Below are positions 28,733 through 37,355 of a stretch of 64,000 nucleotides of DNA, piece by piece. The notes beneath the pieces are model-generated. The model searched no databases. It was not told where the DNA came from and saw only the letters and a list, made by a program, of their open reading frames with translations. Positions within the stretch are counted from its first letter, which is position 1. Each line of letters opens with the position of its first letter. Both the position numbers and the translations under genes were made by a program. Origin of the DNA: Anaerolineae bacterium (GTDB lineage: Bacteria; Chloroflexota; Anaerolineae; Aggregatilineales; Aggregatilineaceae); the NCBI GenBank assembly GCA_016926875.1, contig JAFGNU010000040.1, positions 1-64,000 on the forward strand, given 5' to 3'.

Positions 28733-29704
28733 TTAAAGCTCGGAATCGGGAGCGTACCGGGACACGATCTGCCCGTCACAGTGCTCGCCAGCGGGTATCA
28801 CGGCCCGGTTGAGCACAACACTGTTACGCACCACCGCTCCCTGGCCGACAGCAGCGCCCGACTCCAGGTATACATGCGGGCCAATGTGGGCGCCCTGGCC
28901 AACGCTGACGTTGGGGTCGATACGGACGGGCGGGATGATATACACAGAGCCGGGAATCTCGCTCAAGATGTGGGTATCACGGCCCTGTTCCAGGAAATGC
29001 CGGTTGATAGCCAGCAGGTCCGATCCGCCGGTGAGATGCAGCCGCCAGTCGGTTTGGACGGCGCCGACCCGCCCGCCGTCATGCAAGTACGCCTGGATGC
29101 CGCTGACAATCTCGCGTTCCCCGCGTGGAGAGACTTCTACCTGGGGCAAATAGTCGAGAAAGCGCCGGGAAAAGGCGTAGAGCATGATGCCCGCCCACGA
29201 GCCGCGCGGGGCTGCCGGTTTTTCCTCGATGGCGATGACGTGATCGCCGTTCAGGATGACATCCGACGATTTACGAATTACATCTGGAGTAGCCGGGAGC
29301 AGGCTGAGAACCACATCCTGATCGGGATTGCTGTTGGCCTGGGCCAGCAGGGCTTTGACATGTTCGGGGGATGTCAGATTGTCGACGGATGACAGCAAAA
29401 ACGGCCCGTCGATATATGGGGCGGCCAGCAGCAGGGCGTCAACGGTGCCGGTGGGAATAGACTGAAGTGCAAACCGGACTTCGGTGTCCGGGTGCCACGA
29501 ACCGCTCAGGTACGATGCAACCGCGCCCTCGTTCTCGCCTACGACTACTATAAACTGCCGGATGCCCGCCTCGCGCATGTGGTCCATGACACGGGCGACA
29601 ATCGGTTTGCCGAGGATAGGGAGCATAGATTTGGGACGGTCTTTGGTGAGTACGCCGAGCCGCGAACCGTGCCCGGCTGCCAGAATCACCGCTTGTTGGA
29701 TCAC
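28733..29704 (-). CDS. Sugar-phosphate nucleotidyltransferase with left-handed beta-helix
   Basis: A 323-residue GlmU/RmlA-like enzyme. The N-terminal nucleotidyltransferase domain starts with LAAGHGSRLGVLTKDRPKSMLPILGKPI and carries the second-metal region SSVDNLTS (about 100-110). The C-terminal 60 residues form hexapeptide repeats (VSVGQGAHIGPHVYLESGAAVGQG). It should activate a sugar-1-phosphate to an NDP-sugar for envelope glycans. Start codon is GTG. The leader carries two hairpins. Confidence 0.85.
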   Translation of the reverse strand: MIQQAVILAAGHGSRLGVLTKDRPKSMLPILGKPIVARVMDHMREAGIRQFIVVVGENEGAVASYLSGSWHPDTEVRFALQSIPTGTVDALLLAAPYIDGPFLLSSVDNLTSPEHVKALLAQANSNPDQDVVLSLLPATPDVIRKSSDVILNGDHVIAIEEKPAAPRGSWAGIMLYAFSRRFLDYLPQVEVSPRGEREIVSGIQAYLHDGGRVGAVQTDWRLHLTGGSDLLAINRHFLEQGRDTHILSEIPGSVYIIPPVRIDPNVSVGQGAHIGPHVYLESGAAVGQGAVVRNSVVLNRAVIPAGEHCDGQIVSRYAPDSEL

Positions 29705-29919: not shown

Positions 29920-30150
29920 ATGACTATGTCGTCGACAACCGAGCGTGTGATCGCTTACCATATCGCGCGGTTAAGGGACAAAAACCCACAGGTGCGCATT
30001 GAATCGATCCAGGAATTACTCCTGCTGGAAGCGACAGAAGCGTTCGATGCGCTGGAAGAATTGTTTCGGAACGATCCGGATAACGGGGTCCGCAAAGCAG
30101 CCCAGCACGCCGGGCGCGTGTTGTATCTAAAAATAAACCGGCGTCAGTGA
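29920..30150 (+). CDS. HEAT-repeat mini-protein
   Basis: A 76-residue helical protein. Two HEAT-like helix pairs are visible (IARLRDKNPQVRIESIQELLLLE and DALEELFRNDPDNGVRKAAQHAGRVL). Such small HEAT proteins act as protein-binding adaptors, and no partner is evident. ATG 29920 is used in place of GTG 29914 because GAGG lies five bases upstream. Confidence 0.7.
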   Translation: MTMSSTTERVIAYHIARLRDKNPQVRIESIQELLLLEATEAFDALEELFRNDPDNGVRKAAQHAGRVLYLKINRRQ

Positions 30151-30199
30151 CGCCGGGCGCATAAATCCATATCCACCCCTGCGCAGCAGGGACAAATGT

Positions 30200-30246
30200 C
30201 TTCAGGGGTTCCGCTGAACCCATTGATTTCGGCGGAACCCCTGAGG
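30200..30246. terminator. Long inverted repeat between convergent genes
   Basis: Two 19-base arms (30200-30218 and 30228-30246; core CAGGGGTTCCGC) pair almost fully around a 9-base loop. It fits a bidirectional terminator, though no T-run follows on either strand. Confidence 0.5.
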
Positions 30247-30256
30247 CCTTACGGTG

Positions 30257-31324
30257 CTAGTCTTGCTGGTCTTCGACCGCGCTCCAGGCCAGGTCCTCGA
30301 ATTGCCCAACGTACTCCGCAGTCAGGAAATCGGCGTAGTCTTCATGCCCCTGAAGATAGTAGCCGAAGAAGGCAGTGGTGAAGTGATTGTAGATGGCCTG
30401 GACGTTCTTATCCTCACCTGGCTGCAAGTGATCCACTCCAATGAGCGAGAGCAAATAGTTGTCCGTGGCTCCCAGATGCTCATGTATAAAGACGGCATCA
30501 CGTTCATAATCACACAACGTATCTGCCGTATTGCCGATCAACAGTGTAGGCACAGTGGCGGTGGCTAACCCCCGCGTGCCATACAGTGATGCATAACACG
30601 GCGCAATGGGCACAACTGCGCGAATGCGTTCGTCGGCAGTGGGCGGCCAGAGTTCCCCGGCAGTTACTGGTCCATATTGCTCACGGTACGCGATGATATC
30701 GTCCCAGTAATGGCAAGTCCAATCATCGAGCTCTTCTTCAGCACACATAGCGACGTGATACACCGGATCGACCCTGGTGCCGTTGACCATCAACGCTGTC
30801 GTGCCCCCGGACGAGTACCCTGTGACGCCGACCATGTTCGTATCCATCATGCCGGTCAGACTCCCCTCGTCCAACGTGGAAAACTGGCCCAGCATATACA
30901 GAATATCCAACGGACGGTGGATTAGATTGGGCCAGGGAGGGTTATCGTTGTGATCGGCAGACACGACCACAAACCCATACGATGCCAGATGCGGACCGGC
31001 ACCCAGGGTGTTACTAGCATTTCCTCCCATATAGTGCGAGTATAGAATCAATGGATACGGTGCGCCGCTTTTGTCCGGTGTTGCATCATACTCAGGCATC
31101 AAATACGAGGATCGTCCAGCGTCGGCGGGATACCAGATCATGACATACAACTCGCGTCCCTGCTGGTCTTCGTCCACAAACTCCATGGTGAGCACCCCAA
31201 CCCCATACGGACCCTGGGCAGCCAGCGGCAGGGATTCAGGTTCTTGAGCCAGAGCCGGGTTTGCCAGGCCAGCCAGCATCACAACAGGGACCAACACAAT
31301 ACCGAGCATACGTAACCGTCTCAT
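30257..31324 (-). CDS. Secreted alpha/beta hydrolase (PAF-acetylhydrolase/dienelactone-hydrolase-like)
   Basis: A 355-residue exported hydrolase. The signal peptide (about 1-27) ends near NPALAQ. The fold is typical: YPLILYSHYMGG (oxyanion region), nucleophile elbow GYSSGG (about 165), PTLLIGNTADTLCDY (acid region) and a late DHLQPG (His). Family members cleave short esters or act as cutinase/lipase-like enzymes. ATG 31324 replaces the track start because GAGGG lies eight bases upstream and the signal peptide starts there. Confidence 0.8.
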   Translation of the reverse strand: MRRLRMLGIVLVPVVMLAGLANPALAQEPESLPLAAQGPYGVGVLTMEFVDEDQQGRELYVMIWYPADAGRSSYLMPEYDATPDKSGAPYPLILYSHYMGGNASNTLGAGPHLASYGFVVVSADHNDNPPWPNLIHRPLDILYMLGQFSTLDEGSLTGMMDTNMVGVTGYSSGGTTALMVNGTRVDPVYHVAMCAEEELDDWTCHYWDDIIAYREQYGPVTAGELWPPTADERIRAVVPIAPCYASLYGTRGLATATVPTLLIGNTADTLCDYERDAVFIHEHLGATDNYLLSLIGVDHLQPGEDKNVQAIYNHFTTAFFGYYLQGHEDYADFLTAEYVGQFEDLAWSAVEDQQD

Positions 31325-31364
31325 CGTTAAGCCCTCTTCGCTATAAGTATCAGTTGATAATCCC

Positions 31365-31370
31365 ATTATA
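31365..31370 (-). promoter_or_regulatory. -10 element for the secreted hydrolase
   Basis: The minus strand reads GCTATATAATGG, about 40 bp before the ATG. A weak CTGACG -35 lies 15 bp upstream. Confidence 0.4.
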
Positions 31371-31461
31371 TAGCAACTTGCAGGGCGTCAGGCTTACAGA
31401 TAGATTACGTGCGGTCCGAGGATGCCGTGTAGGCTAAAGGCAGCCGTGTTGTGAATCCACC

Positions 31462-31562
31462 CCAGCCGGTTTCTGGCATTTCCCTTGTTTGCTTGATCGC
31501 CGTTATACTTTCATGCGTGTAAAACGTGTTATGAGCGCACGGTCGCGCAGGGGGAAAAAACG
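31462..31562 (+). repeat. Duplicated promoter/leader, copy 1
   Basis: About 100 bp upstream of the first WD40 gene recur upstream of the second (33108-33209). The conserved blocks are CAGCCGGTTTCTGGCATTTCCC and TATACTTTCATGCGTGTAAA with the same internal spacing. TATACT at 31504-31509 is the likely -10; the -35 is weak. The short ORF in this leader is not conserved, so the leader is non-coding. Confidence 0.7.
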
Positions 31563-32975
31563 ATGTTAGACAAAGCGAATCAGCCGCAGGACCAGGAGAA
31601 GCCGCAAGTCTTCGCTGTGAACAAGAACCTCGGTGACAAATGGACATTCAACCGGCGAGACTTCATCACGGCAGCCACGGCGGCGATGGCTGCGGGGGCG
31701 CTGGCCGGGTGTAGTGGGGAGAAATCGGAATCGGAGTACGCCTCGTACAAGACACCCGCCGCGCCTTATGTGCCCACACCTGCGAGCGTTGAAGGCTACT
31801 GCCAGCAGCAAATATCAGCGCATCTTGGCCCAGTTAGGACTCTGGCTGTCTCACCGGACGGGACCATCCTAGTATCAGGCAGCGATGACAAGACCATCAA
31901 GCTGTGGTCACTGCCGGGAGGGGAGCTGCTGCACACGTTGGAAGGCCATGCTGATGGTGTCACTTCAGTGGCGATCAGCCCGGATGGCACGCTGGTGGCA
32001 TCGGGGAGTGAGGATGATACGATCAAGCTGTGGTCGCTGCCGGAGAGGGAACTGCTTCACACGTTGGCAGGCCACCCTGATGATGTCACCTCCGTAGCAA
32101 TCAGCCCGGATGGGACGCTGCTGGCGTCGGGCAGCAGAGACGCCACGATCAGGCTGTGGTCGCTGCCGGAGGGCGAACTGCTCCATACGCTGGAAAGCCG
32201 TGTAGGTTCCACCTCAGTGTCGATCAGCCCGGATGGGGCGCTGTTGGCGTCGGGAAGTCTGCTCGACACGATCGAGCTGTGGTCGCTGCCGGAGGGGGAG
32301 CTGCTGCACACGTTGGAAGGCCATACTGATTTTGTCTACTCAGTGTCGATCAGCCCGGATGGGGCGCTGCTGGCGTCAGGAGGTTGGGATGACACGATCG
32401 AGCTGTGGTCATTGCCGGAGGGGGAGCTGCTCCACACGTTGGAAGGCCATACTGATTCTGTCCACTCAGTGGTATTCAGCGCGGACGGAGCGCTGCTGGC
32501 GTCGGGAAGTTGGGATACCACGATCAGGCTGTGGACGCTGCCGGAGGGCGAACTGCTCCACACGTTGAAAGGCCATCGTGTTTATGTCGCCTCAGTGGCG
32601 ATCAGTCCAGACGGGACGCTGCTGGCGTCGGGGGGCCTGGATAATGCGATCAGGCTGTGGTCGCTGCCGGAGGGGGAACTGATATCCTGCCTGCTGGATC
32701 CGGAGACGCCGCTGCCTGATGACATTCTGGATATTGAACTGGAAACGGGTACCAGAGTAACCCTGCCCTGCGGGGCGCCGATTCCGAAGGGCGCGACGTG
32801 TATCTGCAACTGTGTGGCGGCTCATGTTTATGGCCCAACCTGCGGCTGCGTAGGACACCGCAGCGAAGCGACCTGTTCCTGTGATAAAGTATGTACGTGC
32901 GACACAGTTTCGACTTGCAGTTGTGATTCCAAAAGCAGCGGCGGCAGCGGCGGCCACTACTGGCACCCGAACTGA
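31563..32975 (+). CDS. Tat-exported WD40 lipoprotein with Cys-rich tail, copy 1
   Basis: A 470-residue protein. A long polar N-region leads to a twin-arginine signal (FNRRDFI) with hydrophobic core and lipobox LAGC, so export by Tat and lipid anchoring are likely. About residues 85-385 hold seven 42-residue WD40 repeats ending in LWSLPEGELLHTLEGH-type strands, enough for one propeller. After the LDIELETG linker, the last 70 residues contain 12 cysteines, mostly CxC pairs (CICNC, CGC, CSC, CTC, CSC), a GSGG linker and the terminus HYWHPN. Tat export suggests folding, perhaps with metal, before export. Function unknown. A tandem paralogue follows. Confidence 0.85.
   Translation: MLDKANQPQDQEKPQVFAVNKNLGDKWTFNRRDFITAATAAMAAGALAGCSGEKSESEYASYKTPAAPYVPTPASVEGYCQQQISAHLGPVRTLAVSPDGTILVSGSDDKTIKLWSLPGGELLHTLEGHADGVTSVAISPDGTLVASGSEDDTIKLWSLPERELLHTLAGHPDDVTSVAISPDGTLLASGSRDATIRLWSLPEGELLHTLESRVGSTSVSISPDGALLASGSLLDTIELWSLPEGELLHTLEGHTDFVYSVSISPDGALLASGGWDDTIELWSLPEGELLHTLEGHTDSVHSVVFSADGALLASGSWDTTIRLWTLPEGELLHTLKGHRVYVASVAISPDGTLLASGGLDNAIRLWSLPEGELISCLLDPETPLPDDILDIELETGTRVTLPCGAPIPKGATCICNCVAAHVYGPTCGCVGHRSEATCSCDKVCTCDTVSTCSCDSKSSGGSGGHYWHPN
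31845..32690 (+). repeat. Tandem 126-bp WD40 coding repeats, copy 1
   Basis: Seven units of 123-126 bp share long identical stretches such as CTGTGGTC(G/A)CTGCCGGAG and ATCAGCCCGGATGG, so the repeats have been homogenised at DNA level. Confidence 0.8.
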
Positions 32976-33023
32976 TCCGGATGGCCGTGCAAACTGGCTT
33001 CTTTATCCCGCCCTTGATAGCGG

Positions 33024-33059
33024 AAGCGGGTATCTCCCCGGTGATGCCCGCTTGTTGTT
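33024..33059 (+). terminator. Terminator after WD40 copy 1
   Basis: AAGCGGGTATC pairs with GATGCCCGCTT (33024-33034 with 33043-33053), followed by GTTGTT. It is the duplicate of the hairpin at 34681. Confidence 0.6.
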
Positions 33060-33060
33060 C

Positions 33061-33090
33061 CAGGCGTTCCTCAACCGCCTGGCGGCTGGC
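33061..33090 (-). pseudogene. Relic of the valS 3' end
   Basis: These 30 bp match 34740-34769, the valS C-terminus, at 29 of 30 positions and would encode ASRQAVEERL. About 22 bp of the true valS end are missing between terminator and relic. It marks the edge of the tandem duplication. Confidence 0.75.
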
Positions 33091-33107
33091 GCGTTTTTCG
33101 AGCCGGT

Positions 33108-33209
33108 CCAGCCGGTTTCTGGCATTTCCCCTGTCCTTCTGATCTCGGTTATACTTTCATGCGTGTAAAACGTGTTATGAGCGCACGGTCACGCAGGGGA
33201 GGAAAAACG
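33108..33209 (+). repeat. Duplicated promoter/leader, copy 2
   Basis: This matches 31462-31562, with TATACT at 33150-33155 and the same spacing from TTCTGG (33 bp). It ends in the ribosome-binding site GGGGAGGA. Confidence 0.7.
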
Positions 33210-34634
33210 ATGTCAGACGAAGTGAATAAGCCGCAGGACCAGGAGGAACCGCAGGTCTTTGCCGTGAGCAAGAGCCTCGGTGACAAATGGACATTCAACC
33301 GGCGAGACTTCATCACGGCAGCCACGGCGGCGATGGCTGCGGGGGCACTGGCTGGGTGTGGGAATGGGGAGGAATCGGAGTATGAGACGCGCAGGACGCC
33401 CGCCGCGACGTATGTGCCAACACCGGCGAGCGTTGAAGACTACTGCCGGCAAATATCAGCGCATCTTGGCCCAGTTGAGACTCTGGCGGTATCACCAGAC
33501 GGGACCATGCTGGTATCAGGCGGCGGCGACAAGACGATCAAACTGTGGTCGCTGCCGGAGGGGGAGCTGCTCCACACGTTGGAAGGCCATGCTGCTGATG
33601 TCACCTCAGTGGCGATCAGCCCGGATGGCACGCTGCTGGCGTCGGGGAGTTGGGATGACACAATCAAGCTGTGGTCACTGCCGGAGGGGGATCTGCTCCA
33701 CACGGTGGAAGGCCATGCTGATGGGGTCACCTCCGTGGCGATCAGCCCGAACGGCACGCTGCTGGCGTCGGGGAGTCAGGATGACACAATCAAGCTGTGG
33801 TCACTGCCGGAGGGGGAGCTGCTCCGCACGTTGACAGATCATACTTATTATATTATGTCTTATGTCACCTCAGTAGCGATCAGCCCGGATGGCACGCTGC
33901 TGGCATCGGGCAGCAATGATAAGACGATCAAGCTGTGGTCACTGCCGGAGGGAGAACTGCTCCACACGTTGGAGGGTCATACCGGCGCTGTCACTTCAGT
34001 GGCGATCAGCCCGGATGGCACGCTGCTGGCGTCGGGGAGTGAGGATGGCACGATCAAGCTGTGGTCACTGCCGGAGGGCGAACTGCTCCGGACATTGGAA
34101 GGTTGCGGTTATGTCAACTCAGTGGCGATCAGCCCGGACGGGACGCTGCTGGCGACAGGGAGTTGGGATTGCACGATCAAGCTGTGGTCACTGCCGGGGG
34201 GGGAGCTGCTCCACACATTGGAAGGCTGCGGTGCTGTCAACTCAGTGGCGATCAGCCCGGACGGGACGCTGCTGGCGTCGGGGGGCCTGGATAATGCGAT
34301 CAGGCTGTGGTCGCTGCCGGACGGCAAGATGGTGTCTTGCCTGCTAGACCCGGAGATGCTGCCTGATGCTATCCTGGATATTGAACTGGAAACGGGCGCC
34401 AGGACAGCCCTGCCCTGTGGTTCGCCGATTCCAAAAGGGGCGACCTGTATCTGTAACTGTGTGGCTTCTCGTGTCTACGGCCCAACCTGCGGCTGCGTAG
34501 GACACCGCAGCGAAGCGACCTGTTCCTGCGACAGGGTGTGTACGTGCGATACAGTCTGCTCGTGCGTGGGGGATTGCAGTTGTGATTCCAAAGGCAGCGG
34601 CGGCAGCGGCGGCCACTACTGGCACCCGAATTGA
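33210..34634 (+). CDS. Tat-exported WD40 lipoprotein with Cys-rich tail, copy 2
   Basis: A 474-residue paralogue of the preceding gene with the same layout: FNRRDFI twin-arginine signal and LAGC lipobox, seven WD40 repeats, and a Cys-rich tail. The tail has 14 cysteines, one CxC pair more than copy 1 (CSCVGDCSC), and the identical end GSGGSGGHYWHPN. The third repeat has a longer loop (DHTYYIMSYV), and two repeats have Cys in place of the conserved GH His (LEGCG). ATG 33210 is chosen over the track start because GGGGAGGA lies seven bases upstream and the longer leader frame is not conserved in copy 1. Confidence 0.85.
   Translation: MSDEVNKPQDQEEPQVFAVSKSLGDKWTFNRRDFITAATAAMAAGALAGCGNGEESEYETRRTPAATYVPTPASVEDYCRQISAHLGPVETLAVSPDGTMLVSGGGDKTIKLWSLPEGELLHTLEGHAADVTSVAISPDGTLLASGSWDDTIKLWSLPEGDLLHTVEGHADGVTSVAISPNGTLLASGSQDDTIKLWSLPEGELLRTLTDHTYYIMSYVTSVAISPDGTLLASGSNDKTIKLWSLPEGELLHTLEGHTGAVTSVAISPDGTLLASGSEDGTIKLWSLPEGELLRTLEGCGYVNSVAISPDGTLLATGSWDCTIKLWSLPGGELLHTLEGCGAVNSVAISPDGTLLASGGLDNAIRLWSLPDGKMVSCLLDPEMLPDAILDIELETGARTALPCGSPIPKGATCICNCVASRVYGPTCGCVGHRSEATCSCDRVCTCDTVCSCVGDCSCDSKGSGGSGGHYWHPN
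33500..34340 (+). repeat. Tandem WD40 coding repeats, copy 2
   Basis: Seven units share the motifs of copy 1. Two units are slightly shorter and one is longer. Confidence 0.78.
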
Positions 34635-34680
34635 TTCAGGTGATCGTGCTGGCTGGCGTCTATCCCACCTCTGATAGCGG

Positions 34681-34716
34681 AAGCGGGCATCTCCCCGGTG
34701 ATGCCCGCTTGTTGTT
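34681..34716 (+). terminator. Terminator after WD40 copy 2
   Basis: AAGCGGGCATC pairs perfectly with GATGCCCGCTT (34681-34691 with 34700-34710), followed by GTTGTTC. It lies between convergent genes and just beyond the valS stop. Confidence 0.65.
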
Positions 34717-34721
34717 CTGGC

Positions 34722-37355
34722 TTAGCTGCCCAGGCTGGACAGGCGTTCCTCGACCGCCTGGCGGCTGGCCGTCAGCGATTCAAGCTTGTCGCGCTCACGC
34801 TGCACGACGTCGGGCTTGGCTTTGCTGACAAAGCTCTCGTTTTGCAGCAGGCCGTTGGTGCGCGCGATCTGCTGAGCGAGATTGCCAAGCTCGCGCGCCA
34901 GGCGCTCGCGTTCGGCATCCAGATCGACCAGATCGGCCAGCGGCAGGTAAACCGTCACATCATCGGCGACGATGGCAGCCGCTTTGCCGGGGACCTCTCC
35001 GGCAGCGTCCAGCAGGGTGATCTGCTTGATGTTGCACAGCCGTGCGAACAGGTCGCGGTGCGCGTTGATCAGGTCGCGGTGCGCGCCGGGATCAACCAGC
35101 GCGCCGATCCTGTGCGCCGGTTCGACCTTGTATTCGGCGCGGGCGTTGCGAATGCCGCGCACCAGATCGATCAGGATGCTGAACTCCGCTTCGGCGTCGG
35201 CGTGCTCGTAGGCCGGGTTGGCGGTTGGCCACTCGGCAGTGATCAGCGGGCCTTCGCCGGTGGGCAGATAGCGCCAGATTTCCTCGGTGATGAACGGGAT
35301 ATACGGGTGCAGCAGGCGCAGGCACGCATCCAGCACGGCCAGCAGCACGTCCAGCGTGCGCTCACGGGCAGCGGGATCGCCCCCGTAGAGCGCGTTTTTG
35401 CTGATCTCGACATACCAGTCTGCAAATTCGTTCCACAGGAACTCAAGCACCTGGCGGCCCGCCTCACCGTACTGGTACGTATCAAACAGGTGTTGGGCGT
35501 TGGCGATCAGCCCGTGCAGACGGCTGAGAATCCAGCGATCCGGCAGCGTCAGCGCGGCGCGATCCGGTTCTTTGGGAGTGTAGCCGTCCAGGTTGGACCA
35601 CACGAAGCGCGACATCTGCCACAGCTTGTTGCCAAAATTGCGGCTGTACTCGATGCGGCTTTCGGCCAGGTTCATGTCATTGCCGGGCGAGCTGCCGGTC
35701 AGCAGGGTAAAGCGCAGCGCGTCGGCGCCGTACTGCTCCACGATCTCGACCGGGTCGATCACGTTGCCGTATGATTTGCTCATTTTGGTGCCGTGCTCGT
35801 CTCTGACCAGCCCGTGCAGATAGACGGTGTGAAACGGGATGTCATCCGTGAACCACAGGCCCATCATGATCATACGCGCCACCCAGAAAAACAGGATGTC
35901 GTAGCCGGTTTCCATCATGCTGGTTGGATAGTAGCGTTCCAGGTCCGGGGTTTGCTCCGGCCAGCCAAGCGTGCTGAACGGCCACAACGCGCTGCTGAAC
36001 CACGTATCGAGCACGTCCGGGTCCTGGGTGATCGCCGCGCTGCCGCAGTGGGCGCATGTGGCTGGGTCTTCGCGGGTGACGGTCGTCTTGCCGCAGTCCG
36101 CGCAGTGCCAGGCCGGGATGCGATGGCCCCACCAGAGCTGGCGGCTGATGCACCAGTCCTGGATGTTCTCCAGCCAGTTGTAATACACCTTTTCGAAGCG
36201 CTCCGGCACGATACGAATCCGCCCATCACGCACGGCGGCGATTGCCTTGTCGGCCAGCGGGCGCATCGTCACAAACCACTGCGTGCTGACCAGCGGCTCC
36301 ACGATCTCGCCGCCCCGCTGCGAACGCGGCACGACATGCGCGTGTGGCTCAACACGGATGGTCATACCTGCTTTTTCCATCTCGGCCCACAGCGCTTTAC
36401 GCGCCTCAAAGCGGTCCATGCCTGCGTAGGGGCCGGCGTTCTCGTTGAGCGTGGCATCTTGGTTCAGGATGTTGACCAGATCAAGATTGTGGCGCATTCC
36501 GATCTCATAGTCGTTGGGATCGTGACCCGGCGTGATCTTCAGCGCGCCTGTCCCAAACTCGCGATCCACGTATTCGTCCGCGATGACCGGGATGCGGCGG
36601 TTCAGCATCGGCACCAGGCAGTACTGGCCGATCACGTTCTGGTAGCGCTCGTCGTCCGGGTGCACGGCCACCGCCGTATCGCCCAGGATGGTTTCGGGGC
36701 GAGTGGTCGCTACCGGGATGCCGCCGCCGTTTTCCAGCGGGTAGTTGAAGTAATACAGGTGTCCCTGTTCTTCACCGCGCTCCACTTCCAGGTCGCTGAC
36801 AGCGGTTTGCAGGCCGGGCGACCAGTTGATCAGGCGCGGGCCGCGATAGATCAACCCTTGTTCCCACAGAGTCACAAAGGCTTCGCGCACAGCGCGGGAC
36901 AGCCCGTTATCCAGCGTAAAACGCTCGCGGTCCCAGTCGCAGCTTGCGCCCAGGTAGCGAAGCTGATCGACGATGCGCCCGCCGTATTTGCGCTTCCAGT
37001 CCCAGGTGCGGCGCAGGAACTCTTCGCGCCCAACTTCTTCCCGGCTGGTGCCCTCGTCGCGCAGCATACGCTCGACCTGAAGCTGGGTCGCGATCCCGGC
37101 GTGATCGGTGCCGGGCACCCACAGCGACGCCTTGCCGCGCATGCGCTCGTAGCGGATCATCAGGTCTTCCAGGCTGACGAACATCGCGTGCCCGTTGTGC
37201 AGCGCGCCGGTGACGTTGGGCGGGGGGATGCTGATCACGTATGGCTCGGCGTCGGGATGTATCTCCGGCTTGAACCAGCCGTTATCTTCCCACCACTTGT
37301 ACAAACGCGGTTCGGCCTCGTTGAAGTCGAAGGTTTTGGGCATTTCAGTTGTCAT
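34722..37355 (-). CDS. valS: Valyl-tRNA synthetase
   Basis: An 877-residue class I synthetase that charges tRNA-Val. The HIGH-type motif is in PPPNVTGALHNGHAMF (about 40-55), the editing domain spans about 170-350, a zinc finger is made by CADCG...CAHCG (about 415-440), and KMSKS lies in GTKMSKSYGN (about 530). A C-terminal coiled coil (about 810-877) is typical of ValRS. GAGGAAACC precedes the ATG. The T-box leader upstream of the intervening methyltransferase gene is Val-type and probably controls it. Confidence 0.97.
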   Translation of the reverse strand: MTTEMPKTFDFNEAEPRLYKWWEDNGWFKPEIHPDAEPYVISIPPPNVTGALHNGHAMFVSLEDLMIRYERMRGKASLWVPGTDHAGIATQLQVERMLRDEGTSREEVGREEFLRRTWDWKRKYGGRIVDQLRYLGASCDWDRERFTLDNGLSRAVREAFVTLWEQGLIYRGPRLINWSPGLQTAVSDLEVERGEEQGHLYYFNYPLENGGGIPVATTRPETILGDTAVAVHPDDERYQNVIGQYCLVPMLNRRIPVIADEYVDREFGTGALKITPGHDPNDYEIGMRHNLDLVNILNQDATLNENAGPYAGMDRFEARKALWAEMEKAGMTIRVEPHAHVVPRSQRGGEIVEPLVSTQWFVTMRPLADKAIAAVRDGRIRIVPERFEKVYYNWLENIQDWCISRQLWWGHRIPAWHCADCGKTTVTREDPATCAHCGSAAITQDPDVLDTWFSSALWPFSTLGWPEQTPDLERYYPTSMMETGYDILFFWVARMIMMGLWFTDDIPFHTVYLHGLVRDEHGTKMSKSYGNVIDPVEIVEQYGADALRFTLLTGSSPGNDMNLAESRIEYSRNFGNKLWQMSRFVWSNLDGYTPKEPDRAALTLPDRWILSRLHGLIANAQHLFDTYQYGEAGRQVLEFLWNEFADWYVEISKNALYGGDPAARERTLDVLLAVLDACLRLLHPYIPFITEEIWRYLPTGEGPLITAEWPTANPAYEHADAEAEFSILIDLVRGIRNARAEYKVEPAHRIGALVDPGAHRDLINAHRDLFARLCNIKQITLLDAAGEVPGKAAAIVADDVTVYLPLADLVDLDAERERLARELGNLAQQIARTNGLLQNESFVSKAKPDVVQRERDKLESLTASRQAVEERLSSLGS

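Follow-up and report, generated by a model that had tools for sequence, protein, structure and literature searches.

A stranded 3′ end of valS points to tandem duplication of a WD40 gene in an Anaerolineae bacterium

Two neighbouring WD40 genes in a 64-kb stretch of Anaerolineae DNA (the whole stretch analysed, hereafter the window) are separated by a 30-bp relic of the 3′ end of valS, a gene whose intact copy lies to the right of the second WD40 gene. The best explanation for this arrangement, and very probably the correct one, is one head-to-tail duplication of a unit of about 1.65 kb, joined without appreciable homology.

Results

A relic of valS between two head-to-tail units

The relic matches the 3′ end of valS (33061-33090 against 34740-34769) at 29 of 30 positions, on the same strand and in collinear position after a duplicated terminator. 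This similarity and order had been pointed out in the initial annotation of the window, and both the alignment and a scan of the window confirm them. The valS gene is encoded on the minus strand, and what the relic preserves is the distal end of a gene convergent with the WD40 genes. Chance, the objection that the initial annotation had itself raised, or a low-complexity coincidence is excluded, because no third copy of the 30-mer with nine or fewer mismatches exists on either strand of the 64-kb window and because blastn-short assigns the pair an E-value of 5e-10. With the collinear position behind the duplicated terminator also taken into account, the probability of such a coincidence is next to nothing.

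The alignment of 31462-33107 with 33108-34790, proposed together with the original observation, revealed collinear homology over promoter, gene, terminator and relic. Identity amounts to 90% in the upstream region and, within the gene, to 87% over the N-terminal part, 82% over the propeller and 87% over the Cys-rich tail; further on, identical positions number 17 of 26 in the 3′ untranslated stretch, 53 of 57 in the terminator region and 29 of 30 in the relic. The locus thus consists of two homologous units placed head to tail, non-coding flanks included, with the right end of the unit present also at the junction and intact valS present at the outer right end only. No second valS relic was found to the left of copy 1, where the left flank (31340-31461) was searched; nothing similar lies left of 31462. 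An Rfam search of positions 30800-35400 returned no RNA family. Although the source assembly is fragmented (104 contigs, 86% complete), an assembly artefact is unlikely for this locus, given that the copies differ by 10-18% and that both outer flanks show the gene order of the relatives.

Table 1. Features of the duplicated locus and its flanks (window coordinates)
Feature	Position	Strand	Basis or remark
Sugar nucleotidyltransferase-like gene, syntenic anchor beyond the HEAT gene	28733..29704	-	68% to G009 gene
HEAT-repeat gene, near valS in relatives, here 4.6 kb from valS	29920..30150	+	68% to G009 HEAT gene; Pfam HEAT_2
Upstream/promoter region of copy 1, left end of unit 1	31462..31562	+	90% to 33108-33209
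WD40 copy 1, 470 aa; Tat signal with lipobox-like motif, seven WD40 repeats, Cys-rich tail	31563..32975	+	
Duplicated terminator region behind WD40 copy 1 (hairpin 33024-33053)	33004..33060	+	93% to 34661-34717
Relic of the valS 3′ end (duplication scar)	33061..33090	-	29/30 to 34740-34769; valS frame reads ASRQAVEERL
Junction segment from relic to promoter of copy 2; diverged valS (DRLEKR vs DKLESLT) or filler	33091..33107	.	Protein p ~0.003, ungapped DNA p ~0.02, anchored gapped DNA p = 0.32
Upstream/promoter region of copy 2, begins at the junction	33108..33209	+	Unit alignment
WD40 copy 2, 474 aa, 80% identical to copy 1	33210..34634	+	
Terminator between WD40 copy 2 and valS (hairpin 34681-34710, 11 pairs)	34661..34717	+	Hairpin after valS in most relatives
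22 bp at the valS end, missing from the scar	34718..34739	-	Alignment; equivalent tail in relatives
Source of the relic within intact valS	34740..34769	-	29/30 match
Intact valS, valyl-tRNA synthetase, 877 aa	34722..37355	-	NCBIfam PRK05729 and TIGR00422 above cut-off

Gene order in relatives and the order of events

We compared the locus with 17 other genomes of the family, none of them from the same genus. The sequence behind valS could be read in 16 relatives, namely 15 of the family and L095 (JAJTXY010000005.1). All 16 have a small HEAT-repeat gene near valS and convergent with it, usually no more than about 0.1-0.3 kb away, and no WD40 match occurs in the stretches retrieved around valS from these 16 genomes. 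As read from the sequences, most relatives also have a GC-rich hairpin right after valS. When genome contigs were scanned with the C-terminal part of valS, the best match was G009 (contig JAFGHR010000076.1 of an Anaerolineae MAG; valS 83% identical), and no closer relative was found. Its gene order is valS, three HEAT-type genes and a nucleotidyltransferase gene. The orthologues of the HEAT and nucleotidyltransferase genes occur in the window in the same order as in G009, but here the HEAT gene lies 4.6 kb from valS, and the intervening DNA carries a hydrolase gene and both WD40 genes. In the window, the gap between valS and the HEAT gene (30150-34722) has thus gained DNA in the form of the hydrolase and WD40 genes; the gap in G004 has also gained DNA, but this stretch of about 0.8 kb (L083:6620-7454) differs in content.

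Since valS and the HEAT gene lie near each other in 16 of 16 relatives, with no WD40 match in the stretches retrieved, the WD40 gene appears to be a newcomer to this gap, which it would have entered first and in which it would have been duplicated later. The same synteny indicates that the terminator position belonged to valS in the first place, and that the terminator behind WD40 copy 1 came along with the valS end. It thereby strengthens the earlier proposal that the ancestral unit comprised promoter, WD40 gene, terminator and valS end. The further suggestion that the duplication broke inside valS is supported for the right-hand break, and valS is indeed intact to the right of copy 2, as had been stated. 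A relative with a single WD40 gene beside valS, which was expected to confirm this history, was not encountered in the family genomes examined, among which the single-copy intermediate may simply not be represented. Of the clear direction and order of events claimed at the outset, the order has stood, with the WD40 gene first beside valS and then doubled, but the direction between the copies has not. Because a junction of this type is symmetrical, with the original left flank retained by copy 1 and the original right flank by copy 2, no direction can be read from it.

The altered end of the scar

The scar differs from the end of valS by 22 bp, which lie between the terminator and the source of the relic and hold the last five valS codons (SSLGS), the stop codon and 4 bp beyond. 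In relatives, valS ends in an equivalent tail (ASLTD, AALAN and similar), which means that the 22 bp were lost from the scar and not gained at valS. At least one deletion has thus hit the scar, and the present-day break may not be the original one.

At its other end, past 33090, the match to valS becomes weak. Translated in the frame of valS, the scar reads DRLEKR-ASRQAVEERL where valS has DKLESLTASRQAVEERL. The score of the six-codon extension (DRLEKR) is equalled by 0.3% of window 18-mers, and the ungapped DNA match of 33091-33107 (10 of 16) by 2.2% in the window comparison; an anchored gapped alignment of the segment to valS is no better than shuffles (p = 0.32). The extension is thus suggestive as protein and weakly suggestive as ungapped DNA. 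All these tests were post hoc and concern a very short sequence, and the segment may be either diverged valS or filler. By eye, it shows no similarity to the left flank of copy 1.

Integrative elements classically leave behind a displaced gene 3′ end, together with a direct repeat on either side of the inserted gene. The valS end beside WD40 copy 2 resembles this picture, and the two 30-mers, identical at 29 positions, might be taken for att sites: a block with copy 2 would have integrated site-specifically at the 3′ end of valS, restored the end of the gene on one side and left the displaced end on the other. However, the WD40 gene is the only gene between the repeats, with no integrase in the block; the homology spans promoter, gene and terminator, that is, the whole unit instead of an att-like end repeat; and the relic, short of the 22 bp, lacks a real gene end. 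Insertion of this kind is highly improbable.

Divergence of the two copies and of the relic

Each of the two WD40 genes has the other as its closest relative: their amino acid identity is 80%, that to the next paralogue in the genome no more than 59%, and the two are sisters in the tree (support 92/96). The branch of copy 2 is shorter (0.085 vs 0.24 for copy 1). Copy 2 also retains a tail stretch, CSCVGDCSCDSK, that has been lost from copy 1; the nearest outside relative, G008, has such a stretch as well (CSCVGNCSCNSQ). Copy 2 is therefore the more conservative copy, which says nothing about which of the two served as template.

At synonymous sites the copies differ by 31% (dS about 0.40, with regional values between 0.26 and 0.50). 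Were the relic lineage alone free to change, this divergence would lead one to expect four to eight differences in 30 bp, and one is observed. For a relic that alone decays freely, the probability of at most one mismatch in 30 is 0.066, 0.011 and 0.003 at dS of 0.26, 0.40 and 0.50, respectively. The 17-18 bp beside the relic are far more diverged (8 differences in 18 bp; Fisher p = 0.0008, post hoc). The relic is thus slightly too alike for the divergence of the copies, and conversion of terminator and relic, constraint or luck could each be behind this. An account by duplication must consequently be supplemented with gene conversion of the terminator plus relic, or with luck.

It is conceivable that gene conversion did even more. 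The WD40 genes might already have been diverged paralogues; a later conversion with copy 2 as donor, using the conserved 3′ part of the gene as its anchor, would then have placed the terminator and the valS end behind copy 1. The terminator and the relic are indeed better conserved than the synonymous sites and the 26 bp of 3′ untranslated sequence. On the other hand, the promoter region and the 5′ part of the gene are similar too (90 and 87%), so that the homology is continuous, and the conversion tract would need to end exactly at the start of the promoter of copy 2. Moreover, conservation of the hairpin is expected anyway, and the relic is only 30 bp long. Such a two-step origin is unlikely, and duplication of the entire unit accounts better for the locus.

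A stranded valS end that is not inert, and that selection or recurrent conversion with valS keeps similar, for example within the 3′ end of the copy-1 transcript, is very unlikely. The 22-bp deletion did create a perfect 7-bp stem in the scar (CCAGGCG/CGCCTGG). A hairpin of the relic was considered as a functional element and rejected, as the fold energy of 33061-33100 is no better than that of shuffles (p = 0.33).

Discussion

The most probable history of the locus begins with the order nucleotidyltransferase gene, HEAT gene and, convergent with the latter, valS. A WD40/Cys-tail gene and a hydrolase gene would then have entered the gap between HEAT gene and valS, after which the WD40 gene would have been convergent on valS, with a common terminator. 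Later, a single duplication of about 1.65 kb would have taken in a stretch that opens about 100 bp ahead of the WD40 start and reaches 30-50 bp into the 3′ end of valS (its last 10-16 codons or so), joining the interior of valS to the WD40 upstream region by illegitimate recombination, with no long homology at the ends. Both WD40 copies would have retained their own promoter region and terminator, and valS itself would have been unharmed by the break, because the intact gene remained at the outer right end. The stranded valS end, presumably without function, would afterwards have lost 22 bp and drifted.

A duplication of the RecA type, between long repeats, was considered and rejected: long homology at the ends is absent, and the longest word common to the outer break regions is 5 bp, which is the chance level when compared with random pairs of window segments. 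Duplications independent of homology have been reported from bacteria. One with two shared bases at its ends has been described (PMC4432121), 36 of 104 duplication junctions in Acinetobacter had no identity at the join point according to the citation in that paper, and similar events are discussed and used in PMC11111574. Like patAB in Streptococcus pneumoniae (PMC4432121), the Acinetobacter amplification mutants as cited there and the Li and Bock duplications as cited in PMC11111574, the locus described here features head-to-tail units, intact outer flanks, an arbitrary new junction and little or no homology at the ends. Those duplications, however, are recent, identical and often unstable, whereas that of the WD40 gene beside valS is old (dS about 0.40) and fixed, with a decayed junction and a 22-bp deletion.

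The duplicated genes are of interest in their own right. In each of the two proteins, a twin-arginine motif precedes a lipobox-like LAGC; then come seven WD40 repeats and a Cys-rich tail, which ends in GGHYWHPN. We assign to the same family, besides the two genes of the window (31563-32975 and 33210-34634), members at L174:6270-13634, L091:6598-11762, L198:1228-13758 and L200:2613-10562. They share a Tat signal, a common N-terminal PQVFAV...RRDF stretch and a Cys-rich C-terminal tail ending in (G)HYWxPN. The middle part is a WD40 propeller; in G051 the WD40 part is absent and something else, with weak SH3 matches, is found instead. In the source genome the family is tandemly repeated elsewhere, with two copies on contig C58 (L173:1532-4246) and three on contig C49 (L174:6270-11062); these tandem copies are set apart by short gaps, and no neighbouring gene has left an obvious scar there.

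Related tails are encoded by the three genes in a row on C49 and also in G008, G044 and G051, always in the company of several genes with radical SAM motifs. Pfam confirms radical SAM for five C49 genes. According to NCBIfam, these five and two G008 genes are near peptide maturases (PapB, SCIFF and QhpD-type models), all below the curated cut-offs, while the Cys-rich tail itself has no NCBIfam model. A literature search for the WD40/radical SAM family or for a Cys-tail RiPP in Chloroflexi yielded no matching paper. The WD40/Cys-tail genes thus apparently form an undescribed family, possibly one of modified proteins. The window pair has no adjoining radical SAM gene, and one set of such genes is on contig C49 of the source genome; if the tail were a substrate, which is an idea only, the C49 enzymes would have to act in trans. 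Judging from sequence, an IS3-type integrase-like ORF (L091:5099-5935) lies near the Cys-tail genes of G008 and might aid the movement of such genes.

The duplication itself is ordinary and leaves the understanding of duplication mechanisms unchanged. The scar is nevertheless a small, clean case of a tandem duplication recording its own history, since a stranded piece of an essential gene here fixes the ancestral order and shows that the WD40 gene already neighboured valS when it was doubled. The scar is chiefly useful as a pointer to the duplicated gene, whose family with Cys-rich tails deserves a study of its own.
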